The notes beneath the pieces are model-generated. The model was not told the DNA's origin. It was given only the letters and a program-made list of their open reading frames with translations, and did no database searches. This document shows positions 44,253 through 56,622 of a DNA stretch of 64,000 nucleotides, piece after piece. Within the stretch, counting starts at the first letter, position 1. Each line of letters opens with the position of its first letter. The stretch lies in NCBI RefSeq assembly GCF_019021925.1, contig NZ_CP058990.1:1790001-1854000 (forward strand), in the 5' to 3' direction. The translations under genes and the position numbers were made by a program. The stretch is from Cellulophaga sp. HaHaR_3_176 (GTDB taxonomy: Bacteria; Bacteroidota; Bacteroidia; Flavobacteriales; Flavobacteriaceae).

Positions 44253-44579
44253 ATGAACTGGATTTTATTAATTATTGCAGGTCTGTTTGAAGTTGCGTTT
44301 GCTGCTTGTTTGGGTAAAGCTCAACAAGCAACCGGTAACGATACAGCTTACTGGTATATTGGGTTTTTAGCATGCTTAATGGCAAGTATGGCACTACTTA
44401 TGAAAGCAACTCAAGAGCTACCTATTGGCACAGCCTATGCTGTTTGGACAGGTATTGGTGCTGTAGGTACGGTACTTTTAGGTATTTTAGTATTTAAAGA
44501 ACCCGCTACCTTTTGGAGGTTATTTTTCATTACTACATTAATTGCTTCTATTATTGGGTTAAAAATAACTTCTCATTAA
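44253..44579 (+). CDS. SMR-family exporter, Gdx/SugE-like
   Basis: 108 residues from ATG 44253 (MNWILLIIAGLFEVAFAACL); a longer frame opens inside the dehydrogenase gene, but its extra 39 residues are shadow translation. Four helices, with the essential membrane Glu in GLFEVAFA and the diagnostic segment LPIGTAYAVWTGIGAVG. The sequence resembles the SugE/Gdx branch that exports guanidinium in dimer form rather than the EmrE branch. No guanidine riboswitch is recognisable upstream, and it is probably co-transcribed with the dehydrogenase gene. Confidence 0.9.
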   Translation: MNWILLIIAGLFEVAFAACLGKAQQATGNDTAYWYIGFLACLMASMALLMKATQELPIGTAYAVWTGIGAVGTVLLGILVFKEPATFWRLFFITTLIASIIGLKITSH

Positions 44580-44667
44580 GTAACTGATTGATTTATAACA
44601 ACTTCTCAATTCATATACTTTAAAAAAATAAAAATTCTCTTATATTAACTAAACTTATAAAGTAGAT

Positions 44668-44689
44668 ATATCCGTAATTGTACGGATAT
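44668..44689. repeat. palindrome and cassette-like spacer fragment
   Basis: ATATCCGTA and TACGGATAT (loop ATTG) form a 9-bp perfect inverted repeat, followed by CCGCATGTTACCAACAAG, a variant of the GTTRSCAAC-type ends seen in the spacers further right. It lies ~37 bases before the first accessory gene and marks the left edge of the accessory region. Confidence 0.5.
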
Positions 44690-44726
44690 CCGCATGTTAC
44701 CAACAAGCTGAACAAAAATCCTGCTA

Positions 44727-45473
44727 ATGAACAAACTTTCCTCTGAAAACCTAAATCTTCTGCCAAACCCGAATGAATTACAAAAAATTTGCAAATCCAT
44801 TTCTGCTTTGGAAGCTATTATCTGTCCTGAATGGGAATACAGATATTATTCTTACCAAAAAGATTGGAGTGAAACAGAAGAATTTTGTGAAATGAGAAAC
44901 GGACAAGGAGACCAAATGCTAATGGTTTTTAGCAAAAACGGAACTTGTATTAACGGATTTGCTCACGAAAGCGAAATGAATGGTTGGAAAAACATTCCAA
45001 TTGAAGAAAAAAAATCTTTTGTCGAGAAAATATTTAGCTCAAAAAAAGAAACCAAAACGGAATTGACTCAAATAATTCCAAAAGGAGTTGTGGACAATTT
45101 GCCAAAAGTATTTAATGACTTTATATACGGAGAACCTGTAAAAAGTATTGGAACAACTTTTTGTATTTGGCAAACTGAATCAGATAATAATTGGAAAATA
45201 GGAGAAATCAATTTACCTAAAGGCGATTACAAAGATGGTTCAAATGATTTACTTCAGTTATTAGATGGAAAACCGTTGACTTACAAAAATTGGGCGGAAG
45301 AATATTACGAGGAAAATTTTGAGGAACACGAACTCAAATTGGAACTTGTAGAAAAGATTTATAACGGAATTATAATAACAAAAGAATTGGTTCTAGAATT
45401 AAATCCAGAATTAGATGATTTTGAACAATTGCAATCGGATTTAAACGAAATCGGATATGAACATAAAATATAA
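44727..45473 (+). CDS. accessory protein of unknown function
   Basis: 248 residues, no signal peptide or membrane helix. It is acidic, rich in aromatic residues (ICPEWEYRYYSYQKDW) and ends in two acidic helices (WAEEYYEENFEEHELKLELV, NPELDDFEQLQSDLNEIGYE). I do not recognise the family; similar single-gene units occur in accessory regions of Bacteroidota. The stop lies 7 bases before a cassette-like spacer at 45480, and the spacer fragment at 44690 precedes it, so it is flanked on both sides like a cassette. Confidence 0.75.
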   Translation: MNKLSSENLNLLPNPNELQKICKSISALEAIICPEWEYRYYSYQKDWSETEEFCEMRNGQGDQMLMVFSKNGTCINGFAHESEMNGWKNIPIEEKKSFVEKIFSSKKETKTELTQIIPKGVVDNLPKVFNDFIYGEPVKSIGTTFCIWQTESDNNWKIGEINLPKGDYKDGSNDLLQLLDGKPLTYKNWAEEYYEENFEEHELKLELVEKIYNGIIITKELVLELNPELDDFEQLQSDLNEIGYEHKI

Positions 45474-45479
45474 AAGCCA

Positions 45480-45622
45480 GTTGGTAACACCGTGTATAAT
45501 TAATTGCTAGGTTCTTCCCTACTTGCGAATATTCCTGCGGAATATTCACGGGTTCGTAAAAGTTTACTAATTTAGTTGCTAACCACGCAACTAACCATAC
45601 ACAAAACCGTTGGTATTAATAT
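45480..45622. repeat. cassette-like spacer element A, partly palindromic
   Basis: It begins GTTGGTAACACCG and ends AAACCGTTGG, TATTAAT. GTGTATAATTAATTGC (45492-45507) pairs with GCAACTAACCATACAC (45587-45602) at 13 of 16 positions. An inner hairpin is GAATATTC-CTGCG-GAATATTC (45527-45547). The first ~70 bases align without gaps to spacer C at 49467 with about 75% identity by eye. The IS3 element begins at 45623, directly after this spacer. Confidence 0.7.
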
Positions 45623-45638
45623 TGACCCGTCCTGAAAT

Positions 45639-46034
45639 ATGTATACAAAACACTTCAAGTATATGTATAAAAATGATGGATATGTAAAACGCTATAGTGA
45701 GAGCTTTAAGCTCAAAGTCTTGGCAGAACTTACCAAAGGAAACCATTCCAAAAGACAAATTGCATTAACTTACGGTATTCAATCCAGTACTATAAACGTA
45801 TGGATCAAAAAGTATGATCGTAAAGATTTAATGAATACCCGTGTAACCGTGCAAACAGACGATGAACTTTCCCGTATCAAAGCCCTTCAAAAAGAGCTCA
45901 ATCAACTTAAGGACCTTCTCATTAAAAAGGACCTGGACAAACTGGTGACCGATAGCTATCTCGAGGTAGCGGCCGAGAACCTAGGCTATAGAGATGTTGA
46001 AGAATTAAAAAAAAACTTAAACATAAAGCCCTAA
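45639..46034 (+). CDS. IS3-family transposase OrfA (helix-turn-helix)
   Basis: 131 residues. The HTH is YSESFKLKVLAELTKGNHSK, RQIALTYGIQSSTINVWIKK, and a leucine-zipper-like coil follows (LSRIKALQKELNQLKDLLIK). It binds the IS ends. A second ATG at 45663 (MYKNDGYVKRYS) could be the true start. The stop overlaps the orfB ATG by one base (TAATG), so reinitiation or frameshifting may give the full transposase. Confidence 0.92.
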   Translation: MYTKHFKYMYKNDGYVKRYSESFKLKVLAELTKGNHSKRQIALTYGIQSSTINVWIKKYDRKDLMNTRVTVQTDDELSRIKALQKELNQLKDLLIKKDLDKLVTDSYLEVAAENLGYRDVEELKKNLNIKP

Positions 46035-46891
46035 TGAAAGTAGCACCGATAAACCGTAATGAAAGGCTCTATTCAATTTGTACTATCTGTAATGCCTTTG
46101 ATCTGAAAAGAGATGCCTATTACAAATTCCAAAAACGTTTTGTTATCAAAAAACAGATAGAACAAGATGTAATCCAACTTGTTCGGGAAAGTAGAAGAAC
46201 ACTACCTCGAGAAGGTACCAGAAAACTCATGAGATCATTAAAAAATGAGTTTCAAAAGTACGACCTTAAAGTCGGTAGAGACCAGCTGTTCCGTATCCTA
46301 AGAGAAAATCGATTACTCGTTAGAAGAAAAAAATATTCTTCTAGAACCACAAATTCATATCATAGGTTTTATAAGTATGGTAATATTATAAAAGACTTGA
46401 AAATCAATAGACCTAATCAAGTCTGGGCTTCCGATATAACCTACATCAGAACCATTAAAGGATTCTGTTACCTAGCATTGATTACAGATATGTACTCACG
46501 TAAAATCGTTGGATATGACCTAAGTGATAGCCTAGAACTAAAAGGGTGTGTCAGAGCTTTAAATAAGGCTATTTACAATGCCAAGAATATTGACCAACTT
46601 ATTCATCACTCGGACAGAGGTATTCAATATTGCAGTAATGTCTATACTCAAATATTGAAAAGAAAGAAAATTAAAATCAGTATGACTGAAGAAAACCATT
46701 GCTATGAAAATGCCCTAGCAGAAAGGGTAAACGGTATTCTAAAAGATGAATTCTATCTTGACCAAACCTTTACCAGCGTGATACATGCGAAAAAAGCAGC
46801 CAAAAATGCAATCAAATTATACAACTCTAAAAGATTGCATTTATCTTTAGATTATAAAACACCTAATTACGTGCATCAATATGCCGCTTAA
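46034..46891 (+). CDS. IS3-family transposase OrfB (DDE integrase core)
   Basis: 285 residues: an HTH_21-like part (LVRESRRTLPREGTRKLMRS) and an rve catalytic core with Asp134 (WASDITYI), Asp194 (HHSDRGIQY) and Glu230 (ENALAERVNG), the DD(35)E spacing of the family. No stop or frameshift interrupts it. The start overlaps orfA by one base. Confidence 0.95.
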   Translation: MKVAPINRNERLYSICTICNAFDLKRDAYYKFQKRFVIKKQIEQDVIQLVRESRRTLPREGTRKLMRSLKNEFQKYDLKVGRDQLFRILRENRLLVRRKKYSSRTTNSYHRFYKYGNIIKDLKINRPNQVWASDITYIRTIKGFCYLALITDMYSRKIVGYDLSDSLELKGCVRALNKAIYNAKNIDQLIHHSDRGIQYCSNVYTQILKRKKIKISMTEENHCYENALAERVNGILKDEFYLDQTFTSVIHAKKAAKNAIKLYNSKRLHLSLDYKTPNYVHQYAA

Positions 46892-46959
46892 AACTAATAT
46901 TAATCTGTAGCCGTATTTTAGGACGTGACATTTTCAAAAATACAGTACACATTATTTCT

Positions 46960-47622
46960 ATGCGATTTTTTTATTTAGGAGAAACTAGAGAATTAAGTAT
47001 AATTGGGCATTACCCTCAAACTATGCGGACTAAAAATGTAGGATATAACGTAGATGCATTTAATTCTGAGCGTAAAGTAAAAGCAGACATATTCCCCGAT
47101 TTTGAGCCAAAGTATGGTTTGGATTTACAAATGGGAGCCAATGCTACTGATGCACTAGACAAATCTACTTTACCTTATGGTTTTGTAGTAAGTGAAAAGC
47201 TTAAAAAGCTTCTAATGAATTTTATGTTACCGCCTCATCGCTTTTACAAGATCGATGTTTACGGTACTGACAGAACATACTACTGGTTTCATTATATCAC
47301 GAACATTTGGAATTATATTGACTTTGAAAATACAGAAATCGAAGTCATTCATAAGTTTAAATTTGAAGTAGAGGAAATAAAAACATTTAGTTCTTTTGAA
47401 GAAATCATGACCTTTAAAAAAAGTTTGCCACGTCAAAATACCATTCGATTTGGCTCAATAAAATTGAGAAATAACTTTCCAAATTATGACTTATTTGAAA
47501 TGACTGGTCCTAAATATTATACTTTGATAAGCAATAAGTTGAAGCAAAGATTTGAAGAAGAAAAAATTACAGGAATTGGCTTAAAAGAATACACCAAAAT
47601 AAAACTAAACCAAAAGCTTTAG
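46960..47622 (+). CDS. Imm11-like accessory protein
   Basis: 220 residues, soluble. The segment LPYGFVVSEKLKKLLMNFML, then PHRFYKIDVYG and YYWFHYI, resembles the Imm11 (DUF1629) immunity family that protects against polymorphic toxins. No toxin gene adjoins it, so it would be an orphan immunity gene. It starts 29 bases after the IS3 element and is followed directly by spacer E. The assignment rests on a weak pattern match. Confidence 0.5.
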   Translation: MRFFYLGETRELSIIGHYPQTMRTKNVGYNVDAFNSERKVKADIFPDFEPKYGLDLQMGANATDALDKSTLPYGFVVSEKLKKLLMNFMLPPHRFYKIDVYGTDRTYYWFHYITNIWNYIDFENTEIEVIHKFKFEVEEIKTFSSFEEIMTFKKSLPRQNTIRFGSIKLRNNFPNYDLFEMTGPKYYTLISNKLKQRFEEEKITGIGLKEYTKIKLNQKL

Positions 47623-47700
47623 CTTCGTGCGAAGACGGAAACGAAAAGTTTCCTTGCTACCGCACTACGCTTAGCTAAACCGTTGCCAGTAATTAAACCG
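47623..47700. repeat. cassette-like spacer element E
   Basis: Directly after the stop of the Imm11-like gene come two hairpins, CTTCG-TG-CGAAG (47623-47634) and GGAAAC-GAAAA-GTTTCC (47637-47653), then CGCACTACGCTTAGCTAAAC and CGTTGCCAGTAATT. The last part matches the AAACCGTTG end of spacer A. The next gene starts 14 bases later. Confidence 0.6.
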
Positions 47701-47713
47701 AACCAGAAAAACT

Positions 47714-48142
47714 ATGGAAATTACATTAGAATATTGGAATGAATTAGCAAAACAAACTCTCCTAATTACTTCTTTATTAAGTGGTTTTTCAATTACGGTA
47801 GTAGCGAATCTATTGGTTTCTGACAAAAATGATAAACTGACTAATCGAATTTTGAAATCTGCGACTTTATCAGCTGGTTGTTTTCTTGTAACTGTTTTTG
47901 CAATGGTTCATATAATAATGACGACAACACCAGGTGGATATATTAAAAACGTTTCAATAGATGATTTTCAAATTGCTAGAATAATTGGAATGTTAACCTT
48001 TATGATTGGACTTTTCTCTCTATCTACTATGATCGGATTATCAGGTTGGACGAAATCTAAAAAAGTGGGCATATTTACAACTGCGATTGGTATACTGACA
48101 TTAATAATGATATTTATAACGATGACTAGATTTAACACCTAA
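47714..48142 (+). CDS. accessory four-helix membrane protein, unknown
   Basis: 142 residues with four hydrophobic helices (~14-34, 50-72, 88-110, 117-138) and a short soluble N-terminus (MEITLEYWNELAKQTLLIT). I do not recognise a family; size and layout fit small accessory membrane proteins, including possible toxin immunity proteins. It lies between two cassette-like spacers in the same orientation as the other genes here. Confidence 0.7.
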   Translation: MEITLEYWNELAKQTLLITSLLSGFSITVVANLLVSDKNDKLTNRILKSATLSAGCFLVTVFAMVHIIMTTTPGGYIKNVSIDDFQIARIIGMLTFMIGLFSLSTMIGLSGWTKSKKVGIFTTAIGILTLIMIFITMTRFNT

Positions 48143-48482
48143 ATACTGAAAACCTATTGAATAAAAAAGAACTACTGGCAACAATGGCTATAATTAATAC
48201 GGGTTTAGCTGTTTAAGATATAAAGCTGGAATATCAGCTATCACCACCAAATTTTTAAATTTGGCTTTTAAGATTGATAAGTTAAAAATAAAATATAAAA
48301 ATTCGGCTCTGTATTAATCCGAAACGAAAGTGCTTATTAACTGCCCTACTTGCCACAGCCGAGCTCTTGGTAACAATTTCACAGCTCATCCTTAGAAAAC
48401 CACAACTGAGAATCCTATTTTTCTATTAATAAGATTTGAGATTTATTATTGCTGTAAATAATAAATTAAAAAAAATTATAAT
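48143..48482. repeat. cassette-like spacer element B and flanks
   Basis: The 340-base gap holds no gene. It starts its recognisable part with CTGGCAACAATGGC, TATAATTAAT (48174-48199), the same core as spacer A, contains a palindrome CCAAATTT-TT-AAATTTGG, and ends in TTGGTAACA at 48367-48375. The remaining ~100 bases before the hydrolase gene are AT-rich without recognised signals. Confidence 0.6.
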
Positions 48483-49490
48483 ATGAAAATTTTAAATAAG
48501 ATTGGAAAAATAATTGTAATAAGTTGCTGCATTTATGCAATAATATCCTTAGCTCTAATTTGTTGGCCTATAAAGCTTGAAGAAAATGTCAAAAATTATG
48601 ATTATAGCTCAATAAAAACTCAAACTAATACACATTTAGGAGTTGAACAATGGACAAAAATGAGAGATAATAAAAAAATTTTTAATCGAGTTTATAAAAG
48701 TCAAAGTAAAGACATTATGATACTAATTCATGGTTCCGGATCTGACAGCAGATATTTGGCAGATATTGCCAATGCAATCGCTAATAAAAATATAGCAACT
48801 GTAATAACACCCGATATGAGAGGACACGGAAGAAACACAGGTAAAAGAGGTGATATTGATTTTATTGGGCAATTAGAAAATGACATTGAAGATTTTATTC
48901 AATTTAGTAAGAACAATTTCAATGCTCATAATATCATTCTTGCTGGACACTCTTCAGGTGGTGGGTTTGTATTAAGGTTTATTGGAAATCCAAAAAACAA
49001 AAAAGTAGATAAAGCAGTTTTAATTTCACCTTATTTAGGATATAAAGCACCGACAGTAAAATCAAATAGTGGTGGTTGGGTAAAAGTAGCCTTGAAAAGA
49101 ATAATCGGCCTTTCGATGCTTAATAATGTGTCTGTAAAAAACTTTAACCATTTGCCTGTGTTATTTTTTAACCGCCCAGAAACAATGAATGACAGTCTAC
49201 AAGTTCCGTCTTACTCATATAATATGACTATGAATTTTGACACAGAAGACTATCAAAAAGAGATAGATAACATTAATATACCTTGCATGGTTTTAGTTGG
49301 AAAAGAAGACGAAAGTTTTTATTCTGAACAATTCCTCACTGTATTTGAACCTGCCAAAAAATTTGTTCAGGTAAAAATTATGGAAAATGTAAAACATTTG
49401 GATATTGTAAAAAACAATAAAACATTCGGATTAATTCAGGAATGGAATAAAAAACAATTAAAAAATGTTGCCAATACGGTGTATCATTAA
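48483..49490 (+). CDS. alpha/beta hydrolase, membrane-anchored (S33-like)
   Basis: 335 residues with an N-terminal helix (IIVISCCIYAIISLALICW) that should anchor it facing the periplasm. The oxyanion-region loop is LIHGSGSDSRY, the nucleophile elbow GHSSGGG (Ser ~159), and the later acidic and His positions GKEDES and VKHLDIV fit a Ser-Asp-His triad. It could be a lysophospholipase- or monoacylglycerol-lipase-like enzyme. Its last seven codons and stop (VANTVYH) lie inside spacer C, so the end of the protein is supplied by the repeat. Confidence 0.82.
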   Translation: MKILNKIGKIIVISCCIYAIISLALICWPIKLEENVKNYDYSSIKTQTNTHLGVEQWTKMRDNKKIFNRVYKSQSKDIMILIHGSGSDSRYLADIANAIANKNIATVITPDMRGHGRNTGKRGDIDFIGQLENDIEDFIQFSKNNFNAHNIILAGHSSGGGFVLRFIGNPKNKKVDKAVLISPYLGYKAPTVKSNSGGWVKVALKRIIGLSMLNNVSVKNFNHLPVLFFNRPETMNDSLQVPSYSYNMTMNFDTEDYQKEIDNINIPCMVLVGKEDESFYSEQFLTVFEPAKKFVQVKIMENVKHLDIVKNNKTFGLIQEWNKKQLKNVANTVYH

Positions 49491-49545
49491 TTGCTTGATC
49501 ATTGCCGACTTACGTACATTCTTGTGAAATATTCTATCTGTGATT
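49467..49545. repeat. cassette-like spacer element C
   Basis: GTTGCCAATACGGTGTATC, then ATTAATTGC and ACTTACG and AATATTC, align to spacer A from its first base with about 51 of 68 identical positions by eye. It overlaps the 3' end of the hydrolase gene by 24 bases. I could not locate a clear right end before the aminopeptidase gene. Confidence 0.6.
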
Positions 49546-49606
49546 TATTTGCTAAATTTAAAACTTAAAACACGTAAAAAACTACAGAGGCAAATAAAAA
49601 AACAAT

Positions 49607-50371
49607 ATGTCAATAACAAAGGAAGCCGAATTAATCGGAATGAAAAAAATAAGTGAAGTTGTTGGAACTACGCTAAAATTAATGAGAGAGTACGCTAAAG
49701 TTGGTATGTCAACTAAAGAGCTCGATGAATATGGCGGTGAAATTTTAAAGAGTTATGGAGCTAAATCTGCACCTTATGAGACTTATGGTTTTCCTGGTTA
49801 TTCTTGTATTAGTATAAATAAAGAAGCCGCACACGGAATACCTTCAGAGAAAAAAATATTAAAAGAAGGAGATTTAATTAATATTGATGTATCTGCAGAA
49901 CTAAATGGATTTTGGTCTGATAATGGTGGCTCTTTTGTTCTTGGAAAAGACATTCATAAGCATCAACCTCTTGTAGATGCTTCTAAAGATATTTTGCGCA
50001 AAGCAATAAACAATATCAAAGGTGGAGTGAAAATATCTGATATTGGATATTTAATAGAAACTGAAGCAAAAAAATCTGGATTCAAAGTCATTAAAAACTT
50101 GGCTGGTCACGGAGTTGGTAGAAGTTTACATGAAGAGCCGGAAAATATATTAAACTACAGAGTTAAAAGTAATAGAGAACGATTTAAAAAAAATACAACG
50201 GTTGCAATTGAAACTTTTATTTCAACAAAATCTACTATTGCGGTTGAACTGAATGACGGTTGGACTTTAGTAGGAAATAAAGGTGGGTTTGTAACCCAAC
50301 ACGAACAGACAATATTAATTACAGACAAGAGCCCTATTATTTTGACAGAATCAAATGGAATGTGGAATTAA
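49607..50371 (+). CDS. map: type I methionine aminopeptidase
   Basis: 254 residues, normal length. The metal ligands are visible: Asp in NIDVSAELNGFWSDNGG (two Asp), His in NLAGHGVGRSLHEEP, Glu in AIETFIST and Glu in VTQHEQTILIT. His ~79 (AAHGIP) is the substrate-contact His. It removes the initiator Met of new proteins. Its place among accessory genes suggests a second copy, because the housekeeping copy is usually in the ribosomal-protein operon. It may be specialised or supply resistance to an inhibitor. Confidence 0.9.
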   Translation: MSITKEAELIGMKKISEVVGTTLKLMREYAKVGMSTKELDEYGGEILKSYGAKSAPYETYGFPGYSCISINKEAAHGIPSEKKILKEGDLINIDVSAELNGFWSDNGGSFVLGKDIHKHQPLVDASKDILRKAINNIKGGVKISDIGYLIETEAKKSGFKVIKNLAGHGVGRSLHEEPENILNYRVKSNRERFKKNTTVAIETFISTKSTIAVELNDGWTLVGNKGGFVTQHEQTILITDKSPIILTESNGMWN

Positions 50372-50409
50372 TCATTTGGTAAAATAACCTTATCTGAACC
50401 CATTAAAAC

Positions 50410-50789
50410 TTACGAACAGTCATTACAAACCCAAGTTAGAACACAGTTAGCGTTTTGGACTTCATAACCATTGGGAAATGAATATGCTACAGCTACTTGC
50501 AAGCATTCAATGGAATCATACAACAAATATCGAAAATGAAAATAATGTTGAATAACCGCTGCTTTATTCTTACATTTTTTTTATAAATAACAAAGTGCTT
50601 TTTCCCATCCTTTGCAACAATTTTATGAATGATATCGGCTTCACAAAATCTATTTAAAACTCTATAAATTGTAGCCCTATTGATATCAATAGTCAATGCC
50701 CTTTCAATTGCATCTTGACTTAGCGCTTTCCTTGAACTTAAAAGCAACTTCAATATTGCCTCTTTTGTAGGCGTATTTCTTCGATTCAT
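50410..50789 (-). pseudogene. Zur/Fur-family regulator gene with frameshift
   Basis: From ATG 50789 the frame reads a typical Fur/Zur winged helix (NTPTKEAILKLLLSSRKALS, DINRATIYRVLNRFCEADII, KDGKKHFVIYKK). At an A8 run on the minus strand (T8 at 50575-50582) the frame is lost. In another frame the Fur C-terminus continues (QHYFHFRYLLYDSIECL, FPNGYEVQNANCVLTWVCND) to a TAA at 50410-50412. Adding one A would restore one protein. The first zinc-binding CxxC is changed to YLLY, which favours real decay over a sequencing error. Read as is, the product stops at 50493 with a nonsense tail. Confidence 0.8.
50575..50582 (-). other. homopolymer A8 tract at the frameshift
   Basis: The minus strand reads TAT, eight A, TGT. 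Nine A would give Tyr-Lys-Lys-Lys-Cys and join both halves of the Fur protein. The tract is therefore the likely site of a one-base deletion, of polymerase slippage, or of an assembly error. Confidence 0.75.
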
Positions 50790-50795
50790 ATTTTT

Positions 50796-50816
50796 TATTG
50801 CAACTAAGTTGCAATA
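50796..50816. promoter_or_regulatory. Zur/Fur-type operator palindrome
   Basis: TATTGCAAC-TAA-GTTGCAATA is a perfect 9-bp inverted repeat with a 3-base centre, between the zur-like gene and the divergent oxidoreductase. It ends 7 bases before the zur-like ATG and overlaps the TTG (-33) of the oxidoreductase promoter. A related palindrome lies at the aztD-like promoter (53422-53446). Confidence 0.75.
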
Positions 50817-50842
50817 ACACAACATATATATATATATATTTG
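50809..50842 (+). promoter_or_regulatory. promoter with (AT)8 spacer tract
   Basis: TTG (50809-50811) and TATATTTG (50835-50842) form a promoter with a 23-base spacer, at the long end of the accepted range. Sixteen bases of (AT)8 (50824-50839) make up most of the spacer and the start of the -7 box. A gain or loss of one AT unit changes the spacing by 2 bases, which could switch promoter strength. Confidence 0.55.
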
Positions 50843-50887
50843 GCAAAAATTACTATTGCGACAAAATCGCGTTTAAAGTTTTGTTTA

Positions 50888-51889
50888 ATGAATAGAAGAG
50901 AACTTATAAAACAACTTGGAGTATTTGGTTTAGCATATACATTACCAGGGTCTTTATCGCTCTTCGCTCAATACAATAGCAGCATGGATACAAAAGAATT
51001 TGAAGTAATAATTGTTGGTGGGAGTTATGCAGGGCTCTCTGCCGCAATGAGTTTAGGACGTTCATTGAGAGAAACATTGATCATAGATGCGGGAAAACCG
51101 TGTAACCGCCAAACACCACATTCTCATAATTTTCTGACCCAAGACGGAAGTACACCAAAAGAAATAGCTGAAATCGCTAAAAACCAACTAGCGATATATG
51201 ACAGCATCAAATTTTATAACGGCCTTGCCGTAAGTGCCAAGAAGATTAAAAAAGGTTTTGAAATCACAACTTCAAATGGTGATGTTTTTACAGCAAAAAA
51301 ATTGGTTTTTGCTTCAGGAATTAAAGACATAATGCCTGATATACCTGGATTTTCTCAATGTTGGGGAATTTCAGTAGTTCACTGTCCTTATTGCCACGGT
51401 TACGAAATACGAAATAAAAAAACTGCTATAATCGCTAACGGAGAAAGAGCATTTCACCTTGCATCTTTAGTGAACAATTTAACAAAAGAAATTACAATCA
51501 TCACTTCGGGAACGAAGGAATTCAAAGAAAACCAACTCGATACGTTAAAGCAGTACAATATTAAAATTGTAGAAAAAGAAATTACAACGCTTGAACATAA
51601 AAATGGGCAATTAGAAACTATTGTATTTAAAGATGGTAGTAAAGAAAATTATGAGTGTGCATATGCTTCAATCCCATTTGAACAAAATTCTAGCATACCA
51701 AAACAATTAGGCTGTGCATTTACGGAACACGGCCATATTGAGGTCAATTCTATGCAGAAAACTACAGAAGAAGGCGTTTTTGCTTGTGGCGACAATAGTA
51801 CGTTAATGCGCTCTGTAGCAATAGCAGTTTCTGGAGGAAACATTTCTGGAGCTGTTGTTAATAATGAATTAACACAGGAAATTTTTTAA
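50888..51889 (+). CDS. thioredoxin-reductase-like FAD/NAD(P) oxidoreductase with Tat-like leader
   Basis: ATG 50888 gives 333 residues with an RR leader (MNRRELIKQLGVFGLAYTLP); ATG 50984 (MDTKEFEVIIVGGSYAGLSA) would give the usual cytosolic form of 301 residues. The FAD loop is VGGSYAGLSAAMSLGR, the redox site CPYCHG (~residues 172-177), and the C-terminal FAD motif EGVFACGDNS. The NAD(P)-binding part has NGERAFHLASLV in place of a classic GxGxxG, so cofactor use may be altered. It is divergent from the zur-like gene, with the operator on its -33 box, suggesting zinc control. Confidence 0.82.
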   Translation: MNRRELIKQLGVFGLAYTLPGSLSLFAQYNSSMDTKEFEVIIVGGSYAGLSAAMSLGRSLRETLIIDAGKPCNRQTPHSHNFLTQDGSTPKEIAEIAKNQLAIYDSIKFYNGLAVSAKKIKKGFEITTSNGDVFTAKKLVFASGIKDIMPDIPGFSQCWGISVVHCPYCHGYEIRNKKTAIIANGERAFHLASLVNNLTKEITIITSGTKEFKENQLDTLKQYNIKIVEKEITTLEHKNGQLETIVFKDGSKENYECAYASIPFEQNSSIPKQLGCAFTEHGHIEVNSMQKTTEEGVFACGDNSTLMRSVAIAVSGGNISGAVVNNELTQEIF

Positions 51890-51898
51890 TATGGATGA

Positions 51899-52069
51899 AA
51901 TATTATAATAAACATAAAATCAGAATGTCACTCAGAAGAAATTCTGCAATTTTTAAAAAATAAGTATCCAAATCTGAAAATCAATTTCGACTCGGAAGAT
52001 TTCAACAAACCACATCTTTACGGTCATTATATTTTAAGAATTGAAAAAGAAACCATTGATATAAATTGA
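51899..52069 (+). pseudogene. open frame without start codon, gene remnant
   Basis: 56 sense codons without ATG, GTG or TTG initiator after an in-frame TGA at 51896. The translation (KSECHSEEILQFLKNKYPNL, FDSEDFNKPHLYGHYILRIE) has a normal protein-like composition, which suggests the 3' end of a lost gene. No family recognised. Confidence 0.35.
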
Positions 52070-52120
52070 ATTTAGATACCACTTAATGGCTAAAGAATTA
52101 AGCTATTTTAAGAAACAAAA

Positions 52121-52143
52121 AAACCGAGTCAAAACTCGGTTTT
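52121..52143. terminator. bidirectional rho-independent terminator
   Basis: AAACCGAGT and ACTCGGTTT form a 9-bp stem with loop CAAA, with extra A on the left and a TTT-rich right side. It lies just downstream of the aztD-like gene (minus strand). Confidence 0.85.
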
Positions 52144-52165
52144 ATATAAATTAAGTAATCTTATT

Positions 52166-53377
52166 TTAATGTTCTATATCGTATGCTAATATTGTAAATT
52201 GATATGGTGTTATAGCTAATTGAAACTCTTTAGTAAGCACCATTTCTTCTAAATTGTATTGTATTATTTTTTCTTCAGAAGGTATAGATATGTATAAGGA
52301 ATTATCAAAATAATCTATATTACTAATAACAGAATCGTGGTCAGTAGATTCTGTATCCATTGGAACAGGTACTTGGTCTGCATATATTACAGCTTTAGAG
52401 GCAACATCGGTAACTTTAAAATCTCCATTTTTAGTTAAACTTAATACTTCTTTTTTGTCTCTAGAAACTATACATTTAAATAAATCTGTAGTTTCATGTA
52501 TTGGACTAATTTCTTCACTATCTATATCAATAAAATAGGCTCCTTTACTCGTTGTATAGCCAACAAAAATATTAGAAGAATTGGTAGCTAATATACTTCC
52601 AAACCACTCATTATCTTCAAAATTAGTTGGGTAACTAATAATTTTTTGTTCACCAGTATCATTAACAACTAATACCCCTGTATTAGAACCAAAAAGAGCT
52701 GTTGTATTGTTACCCGCACTACCGTGAATTCCAGATGTACTTAAACTTTGTTCTTCTTGTGATACAATTTCACCTTCTTGATTTATAATGTGAACTTTTT
52801 CTGGTAATACAGCTCCATTTCCTAAATTGGTAACTGCTATGTTTCCATTTCTAAAAATTACCATTGCTCCATGATGCGCTGTGGTTCCTGTAGAAATACT
52901 TTTAACTAGTTCATTAGTTTCTATTGTTTTTTCATTAAAAAGACTAAGGGTTGCATCTCCGTCGTTATAAATAGCAACGTAATCTTGTTCAGATTTAAAA
53001 TGTGTTGGTTCTGAGCTTTCAAATTTTACCGCAGCAAACCCTGTTTCTCCTAAATCATGACTGTGATCTCCATGATCTATTTCTCCACCAATATTAAATG
53101 TTTCTGTAAAGTTGTTATCTCTATGAGTAATAACACCATACCTGCCAGATTCTGTAGCATAGATGCTACCTTTTGCATATGATGCCTGGTAAGTTTTAAC
53201 TTCTTCACTATCCAGATTTATAAAATTTAATGTGGGCGAATTAGTATCAGAAATTAATAAAGAGATATTTTCATGGGTTTCATGATCTTCTTCAATACTA
53301 ACTGCATCATCATCTTTTGAACAAGCCGTAAATAGAACTGTTAAAGCTAAAAGAGGTAAAAAAGTAATCTTTTTCAT
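52166..53377 (-). CDS. AztD-like zinc-binding beta-propeller lipoprotein
   Basis: 403 residues with lipoprotein signal LTVLFTAC and acidic SKDDD after the Cys, the pattern linked to surface export in Flavobacteriia. The rest repeats WD/YVTN-like blades (GSIYATESGRYGVITHRD, SILATNSSNIFVGYTT, KCIVSRDKKEVLSLT). It has His-rich loops EEDHETHEN, GEIDHGDHSHDLG and TTAHHGAM like AztD, the periplasmic zinc chaperone of AztABCD transporters. No zinc ABC transporter gene is beside it. The promoter carries a Zur-type palindrome, so expression in zinc starvation is likely. Confidence 0.75.
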   Translation of the reverse strand: MKKITFLPLLALTVLFTACSKDDDAVSIEEDHETHENISLLISDTNSPTLNFINLDSEEVKTYQASYAKGSIYATESGRYGVITHRDNNFTETFNIGGEIDHGDHSHDLGETGFAAVKFESSEPTHFKSEQDYVAIYNDGDATLSLFNEKTIETNELVKSISTGTTAHHGAMVIFRNGNIAVTNLGNGAVLPEKVHIINQEGEIVSQEEQSLSTSGIHGSAGNNTTALFGSNTGVLVVNDTGEQKIISYPTNFEDNEWFGSILATNSSNIFVGYTTSKGAYFIDIDSEEISPIHETTDLFKCIVSRDKKEVLSLTKNGDFKVTDVASKAVIYADQVPVPMDTESTDHDSVISNIDYFDNSLYISIPSEEKIIQYNLEEMVLTKEFQLAITPYQFTILAYDIEH

Positions 53378-53401
53378 ATTTTGTTTTTATTTGTTGGAGC
53401 G

Positions 53402-53446
53402 CAAATATATAAAAACGAATCATTAACGCAACAAAGTTGCATTAAT
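53402..53446 (-). promoter_or_regulatory. promoter and Zur-type operator of the aztD-like gene
   Basis: On the minus strand TTG (53431-53429), 19 bases, TATATTTG (53409-53402). The palindrome ATTAA-C-GCAAC-AAA-GTTGC-A-TTAAT (53422-53446) covers the -33 element. Its core differs from the operator at 50796 by one centre base (AAA against TAA) and keeps GCAAC-N3-GTTGC. Confidence 0.75.
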
Positions 53447-53520
53447 TTTCAAAATAACAATTAGTTTAAAAAAAACTCTATTATAAATTTCAACTTGATA
53501 AAATAAGACTTAGAATTTAA
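53447..53520. other. AT-rich gap upstream of the aztD-like promoter
   Basis: Short AT-rich stretch between the operator and the gene remnant at 53521. I see nothing specific in it. Confidence 0.3.
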
Positions 53521-53676
53521 ATGGTAACAACCTATATCCAAAGTCCTAATAAATTAAAAGGAAAATATCAAATACCCGATTATTAAATTATATACCCCAT
53601 AGAAGATTTAGAAAGTGGAATAGACCTATATTGGGAAAAAGAACAAGAGTTAATTGTTGAAAAAGCCAGCAGGTAA
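53521..53676 (+). pseudogene. short gene remnant with one in-frame stop
   Basis: From ATG 53521 one frame reads MVTTYIQSPNKLKGKYQIPD, then TAA at 53584, and continues in the same frame as YPIEDLESGIDLYWEKEQEL to a TAA at 53674 that lies inside the GGTAACA end of spacer D. One substitution separates it from a continuous 51-residue protein. It looks like the tail of an inactivated cassette gene. Confidence 0.45.
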
Positions 53677-53797
53677 CAAAACGTATAAAAAATAAGGGCT
53701 TCGGGCTTAAATGAAAGGTTTGTGTATATTTATGAAGTCCGCAAAATCTTATAGATTTTAATTTAAAAAATAAAGCCTTGGCTCAACCGTTAATAAT
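53671..53797. repeat. cassette-like spacer element D
   Basis: It begins AGGTAACAAAACGTATAAAA and ends GGCTCAACCGTTAATAAT, the same end types as spacers A and E. GGGCTT on the left and AAGCCTT on the right give a partial inverted repeat. The next gene starts 4 bases later. Confidence 0.55.
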
Positions 53798-53800
53798 AAT

Positions 53801-54676
53801 ATGAAAAAATTATTTTTCACTTTTTTAATAATCATTACAATTAATACATCATTTGCGCAAACTGAACTATTGGTTAAAGCTAAAAATGGATTAAATATTC
53901 GATCTGAGTCTAATTTAAAATCTGAAAAAGTTGGAAAATTTAAATACGCTGAAAAAATAGAAGTCTTAGAAAAAACAGATATATATTTTGAAATAATTGA
54001 TAATGAAGAAATAATAAAAGGACAATGGTATAAAGTAAAAGGCAAGTCCCTTACCGGCGAAATTGTTACCGGTTATGTGTTCAGTGGCTTTTTAACAAAT
54101 CCTAAGCAAAAAGACACCTTTGAATTTATTTTTTACGATGATAATTACGACCATTTTTATTTCACTGCAAAAAAAGAAAAAAAGACATACAGTTTTATAA
54201 CAAATGGTGAAGAAATAAATTTCTTAAGAGGTGATATTATTGAAATAGAATGGAAAGAGGTTTTTATTATCAGTGCTGGAGATGAAGATATAAAAGAATT
54301 AAACAATCGTTTACTTAGTATTAAAAAAATTAAAAATGGTATTGTTTCTAACTTTAGAAAGATTTATAATAAAGAAATTAAATATCATTATACAGATAAT
54401 TATTCGCAATGGTATTTAGATTATATCTATTTAAATATTGAATATTATATAGCCAATTCAAAAAATAAGTTGATTAGAAACTTAATCGAAAAAAAGGAGC
54501 AACTTGAATATTCAATAGAAAATAGAAATAGAAATGGTACAAATTATTTAGTTATTGGATTAAGTCATTCGTCTGAATTTAAGACATCACCTTTACAATG
54601 GTTATACTATAATGAGAAAAACAGCAAATTTTATGAATATGACCTACCAAATGATGAATTGATTGAATATAAATAA
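53801..54676 (+). CDS. exported SH3b-domain protein
   Basis: 291 residues with a signal peptide (MKKLFFTFLIIITINTSFAQ). A bacterial SH3 domain follows (KAKNGLNIRSESNLKSEKVG, KGQWYKVKGKSLTGEIVTGY, VFSGFL; ~25-98). The remaining ~190 residues are rich in Tyr, Lys and Asp and I do not recognise them. SH3b domains often bind cell-wall peptides. It heads three plus-strand genes after spacer D, the last of which is a DUF1287 protein, so cell-wall recognition is plausible. Confidence 0.72.
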   Translation: MKKLFFTFLIIITINTSFAQTELLVKAKNGLNIRSESNLKSEKVGKFKYAEKIEVLEKTDIYFEIIDNEEIIKGQWYKVKGKSLTGEIVTGYVFSGFLTNPKQKDTFEFIFYDDNYDHFYFTAKKEKKTYSFITNGEEINFLRGDIIEIEWKEVFIISAGDEDIKELNNRLLSIKKIKNGIVSNFRKIYNKEIKYHYTDNYSQWYLDYIYLNIEYYIANSKNKLIRNLIEKKEQLEYSIENRNRNGTNYLVIGLSHSSEFKTSPLQWLYYNEKNSKFYEYDLPNDELIEYK

Positions 54677-54777
54677 TACAGTTTAGTTTATTAGGAATCG
54701 TATTTTGTGAACTTTACTTATGTTCAGACGCACAAATTATAATAAAAAATAAAAAACACCTGGTAAAAATTGAAATT

Positions 54778-55182
54778 ATGGAAAAACCTTGTTCAATAGC
54801 TCCAACTAATAAAAAAGAATATATCTCTAATCTTGGGAAGGTATTAGTTGAACAAAATGGGAAAAAGAAATATTACAAACCTGAAGAAGTTAAAAAAGCT
54901 CATAAAAACAGAAACAGGGATGATTATTTTGATATAGATTTTGAATGTTATGGTATGAGTATTTTTTGTTCTCATTCAGATTTTGATACGTACCATCAAG
55001 AAACTGGTGAAGTATGTGATTATGTAGCTATGAAAACCGAAATGCTATCTGGATTATCTGTTTCTACAAATGCTGACTGGACTGATATATCTGATTTAAA
55101 TATTGATGCTTCTTGGTTAGATTTTGGAGATGTTTTTGAAGGTATTGGAGAGTTTATTGGTGGAATATTTGATGGCTTATAA
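54778..55182 (+). CDS. small acidic protein of unknown function
   Basis: 134 residues without a signal peptide. The N-terminal half is basic (KVLVEQNGKKKYYKPEEVKK), the middle Cys-rich (DFECYGMSIFCSHSDFD, GEVCDYVAM), and the C-terminus strongly acidic and glycine-rich (DFGDVFEGIGEFIGGIFDGL). I do not recognise it. Its stop overlaps the start of the DUF1287 gene by one base (TAATG), so translation is coupled, pointing to a partner or chaperone role. Confidence 0.65.
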   Translation: MEKPCSIAPTNKKEYISNLGKVLVEQNGKKKYYKPEEVKKAHKNRNRDDYFDIDFECYGMSIFCSHSDFDTYHQETGEVCDYVAMKTEMLSGLSVSTNADWTDISDLNIDASWLDFGDVFEGIGEFIGGIFDGL

Positions 55183-55793
55183 TGAAGTTTAAATTTAGTT
55201 GTAAAATGATAAAAACACTCTTAATACTATTATTTTTTAATATTACTTTTTGTTTTTCACAATCAGAAACCGTCCAAATTGGGTTATCGGAAAGTGCTCT
55301 TGAGTTAATTGAACAAAAAGTTGTTTATGACCCTAGCTACTTTTCAATTGATTACCCTAATGGTGACGTACCTAGTGGTAAAGGTGTTTGTACAGACGTT
55401 ATCATTCGTGCATATCGAAAAATTGGAATTGATTTACAAAAAAATGTCCATGAAGATATGAAAGCTAACTTTAGTGCTTATCCAAAAAATTGGGGCCTTA
55501 AAACAACGGATAAAAATATTGACCACCGAAGAGTTCCGAACTTAATGACCTATTTTAAAAGAAAAGGAGCCGAAAAACCTATTACTAATGAAGCGGCAGA
55601 TTATGTACCAGGAGATGTTGTTTGTTGGAATTTAGGTGGAGCAATAACTCATATAGGAATTGTGGTTGATAAAAAATCTGCAGATTGTAAACGAAATTTA
55701 ATTGTTCATAATATTGGTGGAGGACAAGTTTTATCAGATTGCTTGTTCGATTATAAAATTATTGGGCATTACGCATTTGAAAACAATCAATAA
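55182..55793 (+). CDS. DUF1287 exported protein (NlpC/P60-like fold)
   Basis: 203 residues from ATG 55182; an ATG at 55206 gives a tidier signal peptide (MIKTLLILLFFNITFCFSQ). The DUF1287 core shows YDPSYFSIDYPNGDVPSGKG, VCTDVIIRAYRKIGIDLQK, and AITHIGIVVD. The Cys in VCTD and His in ITHIG fit a Cys-His catalytic pair of the NlpC/P60-like fold, so it may hydrolyse peptidoglycan or another amide. Translational coupling to the 134-residue protein and nearness to the SH3b protein suggest a small cell-wall-acting unit. Confidence 0.8.
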   Translation: MKFKFSCKMIKTLLILLFFNITFCFSQSETVQIGLSESALELIEQKVVYDPSYFSIDYPNGDVPSGKGVCTDVIIRAYRKIGIDLQKNVHEDMKANFSAYPKNWGLKTTDKNIDHRRVPNLMTYFKRKGAEKPITNEAADYVPGDVVCWNLGGAITHIGIVVDKKSADCKRNLIVHNIGGGQVLSDCLFDYKIIGHYAFENNQ

Positions 55794-55878
55794 AGTTATA
55801 CTACGCTGCATTAACTATTTGAAATTATAACAACACGAATTAAGCGCGACTATAAATGCAGTATAGAACTTAAATTAT

Positions 55879-56622
55879 CTATTTTGATGATAATCGCTTT
55901 AACTCAGCATCTAACTGGTTTATTCTAGCTTCTAACTTCGAACCAAATTTTGGGTATTGTTTTAAAAATATATACGAAACCTTCCAGAAATATACAGAAA
56001 CATCATACGGTATTAATACTGGAGGAATATTAATATGATCGGCTAACAAATTATATCCTGTATCTGAATTATCGTATCTTCTAACAAACAATTCTTCATC
56101 TAAGAGTACAATTACAACATCTCCCTGAACAAGATCTTTTGGCTCTACATATTCACCAATAACAACATCGTTAAGAAATAAGCCTTCACCATTAGATTCC
56201 ATAAATAAATCTTGAACGGTATAAGCTAATAAGTGAGAGCTAGCCTCTACAGGTATCGTAATTTTAGGTAATGAGCTATAAGTTTGCGAGATTTTAAATT
56301 CTTCAATAAAAATTTTACTATTAAGTGCATTAACAAATGGTACTCCTGAGAAACCTGCTTTTACAATTTGATTTACATCTGTAGTTATATCACCATCAAA
56401 ACTCAATAATTTGTTAACAGTAATATCTTTTGTTAATATATCATCAATAGATATACTAAAATAATTAGCAACTTTTATAATCGTATCAATCTTAGGTTCG
56501 CTCCTACCCTCTTCATAAGCGCCTAAAGTGGCTCTTTTTAAGTGAAATACATTTGCAAAAGCTTCTTGACTTAATCCTTTTATTCCTCTAATTTTTTTTA
56601 TATTTTTCCCGAAGAATGACAT
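55879..56622 (-). CDS. XRE-type regulator with S24-like C-terminal domain
   Basis: 247 residues: HTH_3 (FGKNIKKIRGIKGLSQEAFA, HLKRATLGAYEEGRSEPKID) and a C-terminal S24/LexA-like fold (IPVEASSHLLAYTVQDLFME, LVQGDVVIVLLDEELFVRRY). I cannot identify a Ser-Lys dyad with confidence, so self-cleavage is uncertain. It is divergent from the PspA locus, with promoters facing each other, so it may regulate that locus. Confidence 0.85.
   Translation of the reverse strand: MSFFGKNIKKIRGIKGLSQEAFANVFHLKRATLGAYEEGRSEPKIDTIIKVANYFSISIDDILTKDITVNKLLSFDGDITTDVNQIVKAGFSGVPFVNALNSKIFIEEFKISQTYSSLPKITIPVEASSHLLAYTVQDLFMESNGEGLFLNDVVIGEYVEPKDLVQGDVVIVLLDEELFVRRYDNSDTGYNLLADHINIPPVLIPYDVSVYFWKVSYIFLKQYPKFGSKLEARINQLDAELKRLSSK

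Follow-up and report, generated by a model that had tools for sequence, protein, structure and literature searches.

Integrons carry single-gene cassettes whose attC sites form bottom-strand hairpins with a G|TT crossover, have an attI site next to the integrase gene and can build long chromosomal arrays. Part of these features is taken from passages of PMC3053210, which also report a structure in which the alpha-I2 helix of the integron integrase IntI contacts an extrahelical attC base, and the domain with which IntI integrases read such bases is described as essential in passages of PMC8138268 and PMC3053210. Within Bacteroidetes proper, the relevant part of the IntegronFinder 2.0 survey (PMC9024848) gives one complete integron, in Salinibacter. 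The nearest published case, as set out in parts of PMC9892861, is an attC from the Polaribacter phage P12002L that was recombined by IntI1. Here we describe an array of genes and attC-like spacers in the window, by which we mean the whole stretch of 64,000 nucleotides analysed from Cellulophaga sp. HaHaR_3_176 (NZ_CP058990.1, positions 1,790,001 to 1,854,000), and which is very probably a decayed stretch of an integron-like cassette system of marine flavobacteria.

To judge from its sequences, the system is integron-like in its working, yet it lacks three tested features that define IntI integrons. Like class 1 integrons and the Vibrio cholerae superintegron with its Vibrio cholerae repeats (VCR), it has single-gene cassettes, bottom-strand hairpins, the G|TT crossover, attI and long arrays. 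Unlike them, it has a recombinase without the IntI insertion and below the TIGR02249 cut-off, R boxes of which YAAC/GTTR is left, together with a 7-bp stem specific to each cassette, stems that mostly carry no extrahelical base, and a recombinase gene that usually lies on the same strand as the cassettes, with attI at its 3′ end. The sites of P12002L, like those in clusters of attC sites without integrase (CALINs), are also attC-like and come from a Flavobacteriaceae phage, one of them being active with IntI1; their description in parts of PMC9892861 sets them apart as HattCI/Infernal predictions that are divergent and have no recombinase. One site of the present kind, 171 bp long, had no match in the phage collection. 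No description of the system was found in the open-access literature searched, a scope that leaves most subscription papers and all preprints outside.

Cassette units and their folded sites

The initial annotation had proposed a cassette system in which the spacers are recombination sites, similar in logic to integrons, and the comparison with other genomes supports this proposal. The covariance model R1 was built from 60 sites of a 132-bp class and a second profile from 35 sites of a class of about 200 bp, all from other genomes. Because a sequence-only profile of the 132-bp class missed sites in locus L174 (11, compared with 18 by the covariance model), the covariance-model matches were used. 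From one set, 103 of 105 sites were retained, after removal of one at a contig end and one weak opposite-strand shadow, and from a second set 240 of 250, after removal of nine at locus ends and one of 24 bits; the 250-site search covered 40 of 119 loci, and two L180 sites overlapping L179 were removed.

The limits of the mobile unit were examined by comparing the seven bases that follow GTT with the seven that precede AAC, a pair being counted as complementary when at least 6 of 7 bases matched. This own-end comparison covered 266 units in 56 loci of other genomes, with 333 sites for which both ends had been placed. The two ends of the same cassette were complementary in 237 of 266 cases; the corresponding figure was 8 of 266 when one half of an array site was compared with its other half, and 1,077 of 26,600 for shuffled pairs. 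Since the ends are complementary across the gene and not across the site, the mobile unit is TT-gene-attC-G. We read this as a unit that circularises into a complete site, as integron cassettes do, and whose neighbours in the array come from elsewhere. The eighth position is C/A, a G·T on the bottom strand, in 229 of the 266 units. The longest open reading frame (ORF) lies on the top strand in 236 of them; the median distances are 36 bp from the cassette start to the ATG and 12 bp from the stop codon to AAC. Within each of 53 multi-site loci, all sites are on one strand; an opposite-strand site, L220:4945 (46.5 bits), falls outside this count.

Folding of the site was analysed mainly in the 132-bp class. 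Its 16-bp stem gives 960 cells over the 60 sites, comprising 765 Watson-Crick pairs, 168 A·C and 9 G·T. An A·C on the top strand is a G·T on the bottom strand, and two A·C positions are near-invariant (58/60 each). RNAalifold returned −13.35 for the bottom strand and −3.44 for the top strand, DNA folding made the bottom strand the more stable one in 382 of 394 sites, and pair-preserving two-sided changes were observed in 10 of the 12 pairs predicted by RNAalifold on the top strand. In this class, attC is conserved as a hairpin with a bottom-strand preference, as in integrons. Extrahelical bases on the folded bottom strand are not a feature of the class, since 55 of the 60 stems have no bulge and hence no such base. 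The internal loop is asymmetric, with 3 nucleotides facing 6 (48 sites) or 5 (12 sites), and we infer that this asymmetry and the conserved G·T wobbles, rather than extrahelical bases read by the IntI alpha-I2 helix, set the choice of strand. Canonical RYYYAAC/GTTRRRY boxes, whose absence the initial annotation had noted, are rare across both classes: of the 333 sites, 23 have an exact RYYYAAC and 22 an exact GTTRRRY. Searches based on these boxes would probably miss these arrays.

The sequences also show that whole cassettes have been duplicated and transferred. Eleven homologous cassette pairs were found within and between genomes, and their neighbours differed wherever visible. In three within-genome duplicates, whose genes are 99–100% identical, the match starts at G|TT, takes in the cassette's own attC and ends at the following G|TT; the left attC (46–80%) and the preceding gene (49–56%) lie outside it. 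The cassettes, each one co-oriented ORF with its attC (236/266), therefore behave in these duplications as integron cassettes do, moving as units.

The attI site, the linked recombinase and their distribution

In most of the relatives examined, a 22-bp inverted repeat followed by GTT lies directly 3′ of the recombinase gene. Five related species have a common sequence up to the crossover GTT, with one base different in L183, after which they diverge. These species share the recombinase, attI and one chromosomal locus, in which the 3.9–5 kb upstream are 76–84% identical and the first cassettes differ, with the break at G|TT. As in integrons, attI is thus next to the integrase and cassettes are joined to it at G|TT, the attI-like site of the window being an exception.

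Among 26 fetched loci with both elements, 24 have the sites downstream of the recombinase and on its strand (a count that includes the plasmid locus L234, judged by eye), and two are divergent (L091 and L238). Same-contig pairs among the matches listed gave at least 19 co-oriented and at least four divergent cases (G018, G046, G053 and G102), with G031, G085 and G130 counted in both tallies. The shorter recombinases (277–284 amino acids) in L238, L091 and G018:C13 are divergent from their arrays, as in classical integrons. One array, in G085:C1, holds 89 sites (one weak) on one strand between 533 and 609 kb, with the recombinase at its head, and is superintegron-like (531–610 kb; L243, L226, L227 and L242). 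Orientation relative to replication was also considered as a possible rule, with dnaA placed in 15 genomes and the terminus assumed to be opposite. Most clusters of the genome that contains the window are co-directional with replication, as are the arrays of G031 and G085; the window array, the recombinase array of the same genome and that of G130 are head-on. The directions are mixed and follow no rule.

The initial annotation had also reported no integrase beside the array. This holds for the window, yet beyond it, at a distance of 24 kb from spacer D and 20 kb from spacer E (Table 1), the genome encodes an intact recombinase of 375 amino acids, with attI and four sites of the ~200-bp class downstream. 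The enzyme linked to the arrays is a tyrosine recombinase of the XerA/IntI kind. Arg, Lys, His-X-X-Arg, His and Tyr, which we take to be the tyrosine-recombinase active site, are invariant in 25 aligned members. The spacing from Arg to His is 89 in 30 of 30 members, 94–96 in 6 of 6 Xer proteins and 131 in 19 of 21 IntI (two without a readable motif) and in the IntI of G202. The IntI-specific additional domain, an insertion of about 42 residues, is missing from the array recombinase; in comparison with 2a3v, it has 22 residues where IntI4 has 65. The top NCBIfam matches are NF040815 (XerA) with 207 bits (cut-off 220) and TIGR02249 with 206.8 bits (cut-off 265); matches to TIGR02249 beside arrays were below the cut-off, and none of the 18 genomes of the genus exceeded it. 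In the predicted structure (mean predicted local distance difference test score 81.1, predicted template modelling score 0.51), the first Foldseek matches were XerA 5hxy and IntI4 2a3v.

The enzyme resembles XerA, XerC and XerD in its best NCBIfam match and in having no IntI insertion; unlike them, it has its gene linked to arrays of cassettes and to a separate attI, and the tree places it with IntI. This quick tree, which carries only Shimodaira–Hasegawa-like approximate likelihood ratio support, has several long branches and leaves out INTI_L207 and NEW_L053, puts the recombinase apart from XerC/D of the genus (6 rows from three genomes; support 99). The array recombinase is accordingly distinct from the housekeeping Xer of the same genomes, as opposed to a XerCD/dif system; the tree does not settle a single origin of the new recombinase group. 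Several members are named 'site-specific tyrosine recombinase/integron integrase' by NCBI, a name that comes with no integron description. A recombinase of 298 amino acids inside the array of L188, on the opposite strand and 28.7% identical, was set aside as unrelated.

The covariance-model search detected sites across Flavobacteriaceae, in 107 of 120 genomes (one per genus; E<=1e-4). Where arrays were examined, the sites lie at the borders of genes and bracket what are mostly single ORFs in a common orientation. The recombinase was detected in 84 of the 120 genomes; 82 had both, 25 sites only, 2 the recombinase only and 11 neither (Fisher p 2.5e-5). Across the phylum, sites were found in 53 of 296 genomes (E<=1e-7). 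Strong matches to canonical IntI were found in 108 of 395 phylum genomes, 105 of them above the TIGR02249 cut-off, and none was from Flavobacteriaceae, of which at least 20 genomes were among the 395. Canonical IntI is common in other Bacteroidota families (105/395), above what the pertinent part of the complete-genome survey suggests (PMC9024848).

The mobilizable plasmid pls1 of Pontibacter kalidii (NZ_CP111080.1, L234) encodes a recombinase relative (51%); behind it come single-gene units that have short sites of 60–80 bp and own ends that match when compared by eye. In 17 viral contigs (L255–L271), the left arm of the site has an exact match, which suggests that cassettes occur on phages; this recombinase was not found in the fetched stretches of these contigs.

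Proposed mechanism and competing explanations

In the mechanism that we propose, a cassette would take the form TT-RNNNNNN-gene-attC-G, and its attC would be recognised as a folded single strand, with the folded bottom strand as the substrate. The linked tyrosine recombinase presumably catalyses the joining reaction and would join cassettes at G|TT to attI, which lies just 3′ of its gene in most arrays seen, or to other attCs. Most cassettes probably lack promoters. The window has kept attI and four cassettes without an adjacent recombinase, for which the intact enzyme encoded 24 kb beyond spacer D could serve in trans.

Palindromic sequences that occur in many copies per genome, a few of them scattered singly, might instead be dispersed repeats of the repetitive extragenic palindromic (REP) or miniature inverted-repeat transposable element (MITE) kind, piling up between genes without being recombination sites. 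The spacers, however, have ends that are cassette-specific and complementary across the gene; they lie a median of 12 bp past stop codons, and each of the 53 multi-site loci has them on a single strand; the identity of copies breaks at G|TT, and there are the attI junctions. We regard this explanation as very improbable; the complementary own ends and the duplicated cassettes already contradict it. Hairpins directly behind stop codons could also be transcription terminators, or untranslated RNAs with a conserved structure at the ends of genes. The polarity, however, favours the bottom, non-coding strand (168 A·C against 9 G·T), a search of 44.0–56.5 kb against Rfam gave nothing relevant and no family at the spacers of the window, and a match between own ends across a gene has no role in a terminator, which makes an origin of this sort scarcely credible.

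A closer competitor is that the arrays are ordinary CALINs, mobilised by a canonical IntI encoded elsewhere or by XerCD. The recombination of a Polaribacter phage attC by IntI1 (parts of PMC9892861) speaks for it, as do the window array without an adjacent recombinase, the site-bearing genomes in which no recombinase of the linked type passed the threshold, and one R1-like site near a canonical IntI in G202. Against these stand the absence of family members among the 108 genomes with a strong canonical IntI, the failure of all 18 genus genomes to pass the TIGR02249 cut-off, and a different recombinase, with attI, that is linked to the arrays. We therefore consider the CALIN explanation unlikely and retain that of an integron-like cassette system with its own recombinase.

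Several observations weigh against this preferred reading. The own-end comparison failed in 29 of 266 cassettes, 20 of 266 units have no ORF of 40 amino acids and in 10 of 266 the longest ORF is on the other strand. In two cassette pairs shared by different genera the attC is much less similar than the gene, namely L060:3249 and L087:1125 (Polaribacter sp. WD7 and strain ALC-1; gene 93%, attC 65%) and L073:3177 and L115:2938 (gene 89%, attC 67%); the attC of cassettes common to two genera may have been exchanged or may evolve faster than the gene. The attI-like site of the window has no recombinase gene adjacent to it, the recombinase copy of L183 is split into two frames, and recombinases without a site were found in L185 and L189, both near a contig end, and in L192, where 9.7 kb downstream hold none. 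The recombinase did not reach the threshold used in 25 of 107 site-bearing genomes, and one family genus (g121) has sites in 5 of 17 genomes (E<=1e-7). The comparisons are between species, with one genome per species. Finally, the classification paper calls the IntI insertion essential for integron function in one passage and, in another, describes it as not fully conserved in an integron-like subgroup (PMC8138268).

On balance, we think it probable, with less confidence than for the window array itself, that the system represents a second integron lineage, widespread in Flavobacteriaceae, with a recombinase that lacks the alpha-I2 domain and a folded single-strand attC that lacks extrahelical bases. 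If so, this lineage would be either a state that preceded IntI or an independent evolution of the logic of integrons, and the alpha-I2 domain and extrahelical bases would be one solution rather than a requirement. Because a common marine family has integron-like arrays without the domain or the bases, that requirement becomes directly testable. The system also points to an extensive reservoir of mobile genes in this family, with one array of 89 sites, and a relative lies on a mobilizable plasmid.

The array in the window

Table 1. Features of the cassette array in the window (positions are those of the window)
Feature	Position	Strand	Description
attI-like site	44668..44698	+	22-bp inverted repeat 44668-44689, then crossover GTT 44696-44698
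Cassette 1	44697..45609	+	gene 44727-45473 (no Pfam match) and attC A
Spacer A	45478..45619	+	attC-like, ~132-bp class, full length, folding on the bottom strand; R1 119.8 bits, E 1.1e-25
Cassette 2 (IS-interrupted)	45610..47682	+	gene 46960-47622 and decayed attC B
IS3-type insertion sequence (IS)	45623..46930	+	HTH_Tnp_1 ORF 45639-46034 and rve ORF 46034-46891 (Pfam)
Spacer B	47596..47691	+	attC-like, ~200-bp class, right half; profile positions 109-205, E 2e-7
Cassette 3	47683..48366	+	gene 47714-48142 (no Pfam family above cut-off) and attC C
Spacer C	48172..48368	+	~200-bp-class attC-like site; profile positions 1-193, E 2e-30
Cassette 4	48367..49604	+	gene 48483-49490 (alpha/beta hydrolase, Pfam Hydrolase_4 E 4.7e-25) and attC D
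Spacer D	49465..49604	+	132-bp-class attC-like site, right end decayed; R1 51.9 bits, E 6.1e-10
Spacer E	53668..53791	+	lone ~200-bp-class attC-like remnant; profile positions 3-139, E 1.8e-15

Direct inspection of the window located spacers at all five positions named in the initial annotation. Spacers A and D match R1, and C, E and B match the ~200-bp-class profile, so that two site families are present; after A and D, the next best R1 match in the window scored 16.9 bits, and spacer E was not significant with this model (10.9 bits, E 1.9). Spacer A pairs with itself at 13 of 16 positions, as had been described, and the remaining three are A·C. An agreement of A and C at about 51 of 68 positions was not reproduced. 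Without gaps, the best 68-mer has 34 identities; with gaps, the alignment scores 14, where 300 shuffles average 11 and reach 17 at most. As A and C belong to different site families, the claimed identity does not hold. Two presumed spacer fragments are real, the one at 48367 being the right end of spacer C and the one at 44690 belonging to the attI-like site, not to a spacer. Its layout is that of the sequence which follows the 3′ end of the recombinase gene directly, both in relatives and in locus L178 of this genome. A gene for a transporter of the small multidrug resistance (SMR) family (44253-44579) lies directly upstream of the attI-like site.

The own ends agree with the cassette units in three of the four cassettes. 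In Cassette 1, the first ten bases, GTTACCAAC, and the last ten before the stem, GTTGGTAAC, are complementary at 9 of 10 positions; in Cassette 3, the 5′ GTTGCCAGTA and the 3′ TACTGGCAAC are complementary at 10 of 10; and the ends of Cassette 4 match at 8 of 10. No match was found in the own-end comparison of Cassette 2, and no own-end partner was found for spacer E. The right core of spacer C is CTT, not GTT. The genes had all been assigned to the plus strand, which fails between D and E, where a FUR-like gene (50493-50846) and an ORF (52166-53377) are on the minus strand. Owing to these genes, the contiguous decayed array is that of 44.7–49.6 kb, with D as its final site, and E is a lone, isolated remnant.

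The insertion sequence provides a further witness to the sites. In the window it is inserted 13 nucleotides beyond the crossover G|TT of spacer A, and all eight copies in this genome (the window copy and L247–L254), which have the same orientation, begin 13 nucleotides after the crossover of an attC-like site. Seven of these sites are of the ~200-bp class (E<=5.2e-23), and that of the window copy is of the 132-bp class (4.9e-31). The core is followed by N7-ATNT in seven copies and by N7-AATT in one, and the core GTT is mutated in one. IS1111-attC elements likewise insert at one end of attC, as described in parts of PMC11187229; unlike these elements, which have a DEDD transposase, the one in the window carries HTH_Tnp_1 and rve ORFs of the IS3 type, and it is an attC-targeting insertion sequence outside the IS1111 family. 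Its window copy separates the gene at 46960-47622, a member of an Imm11-like immunity family (Pfam Imm11 E 2.8e-6), from the preceding site.

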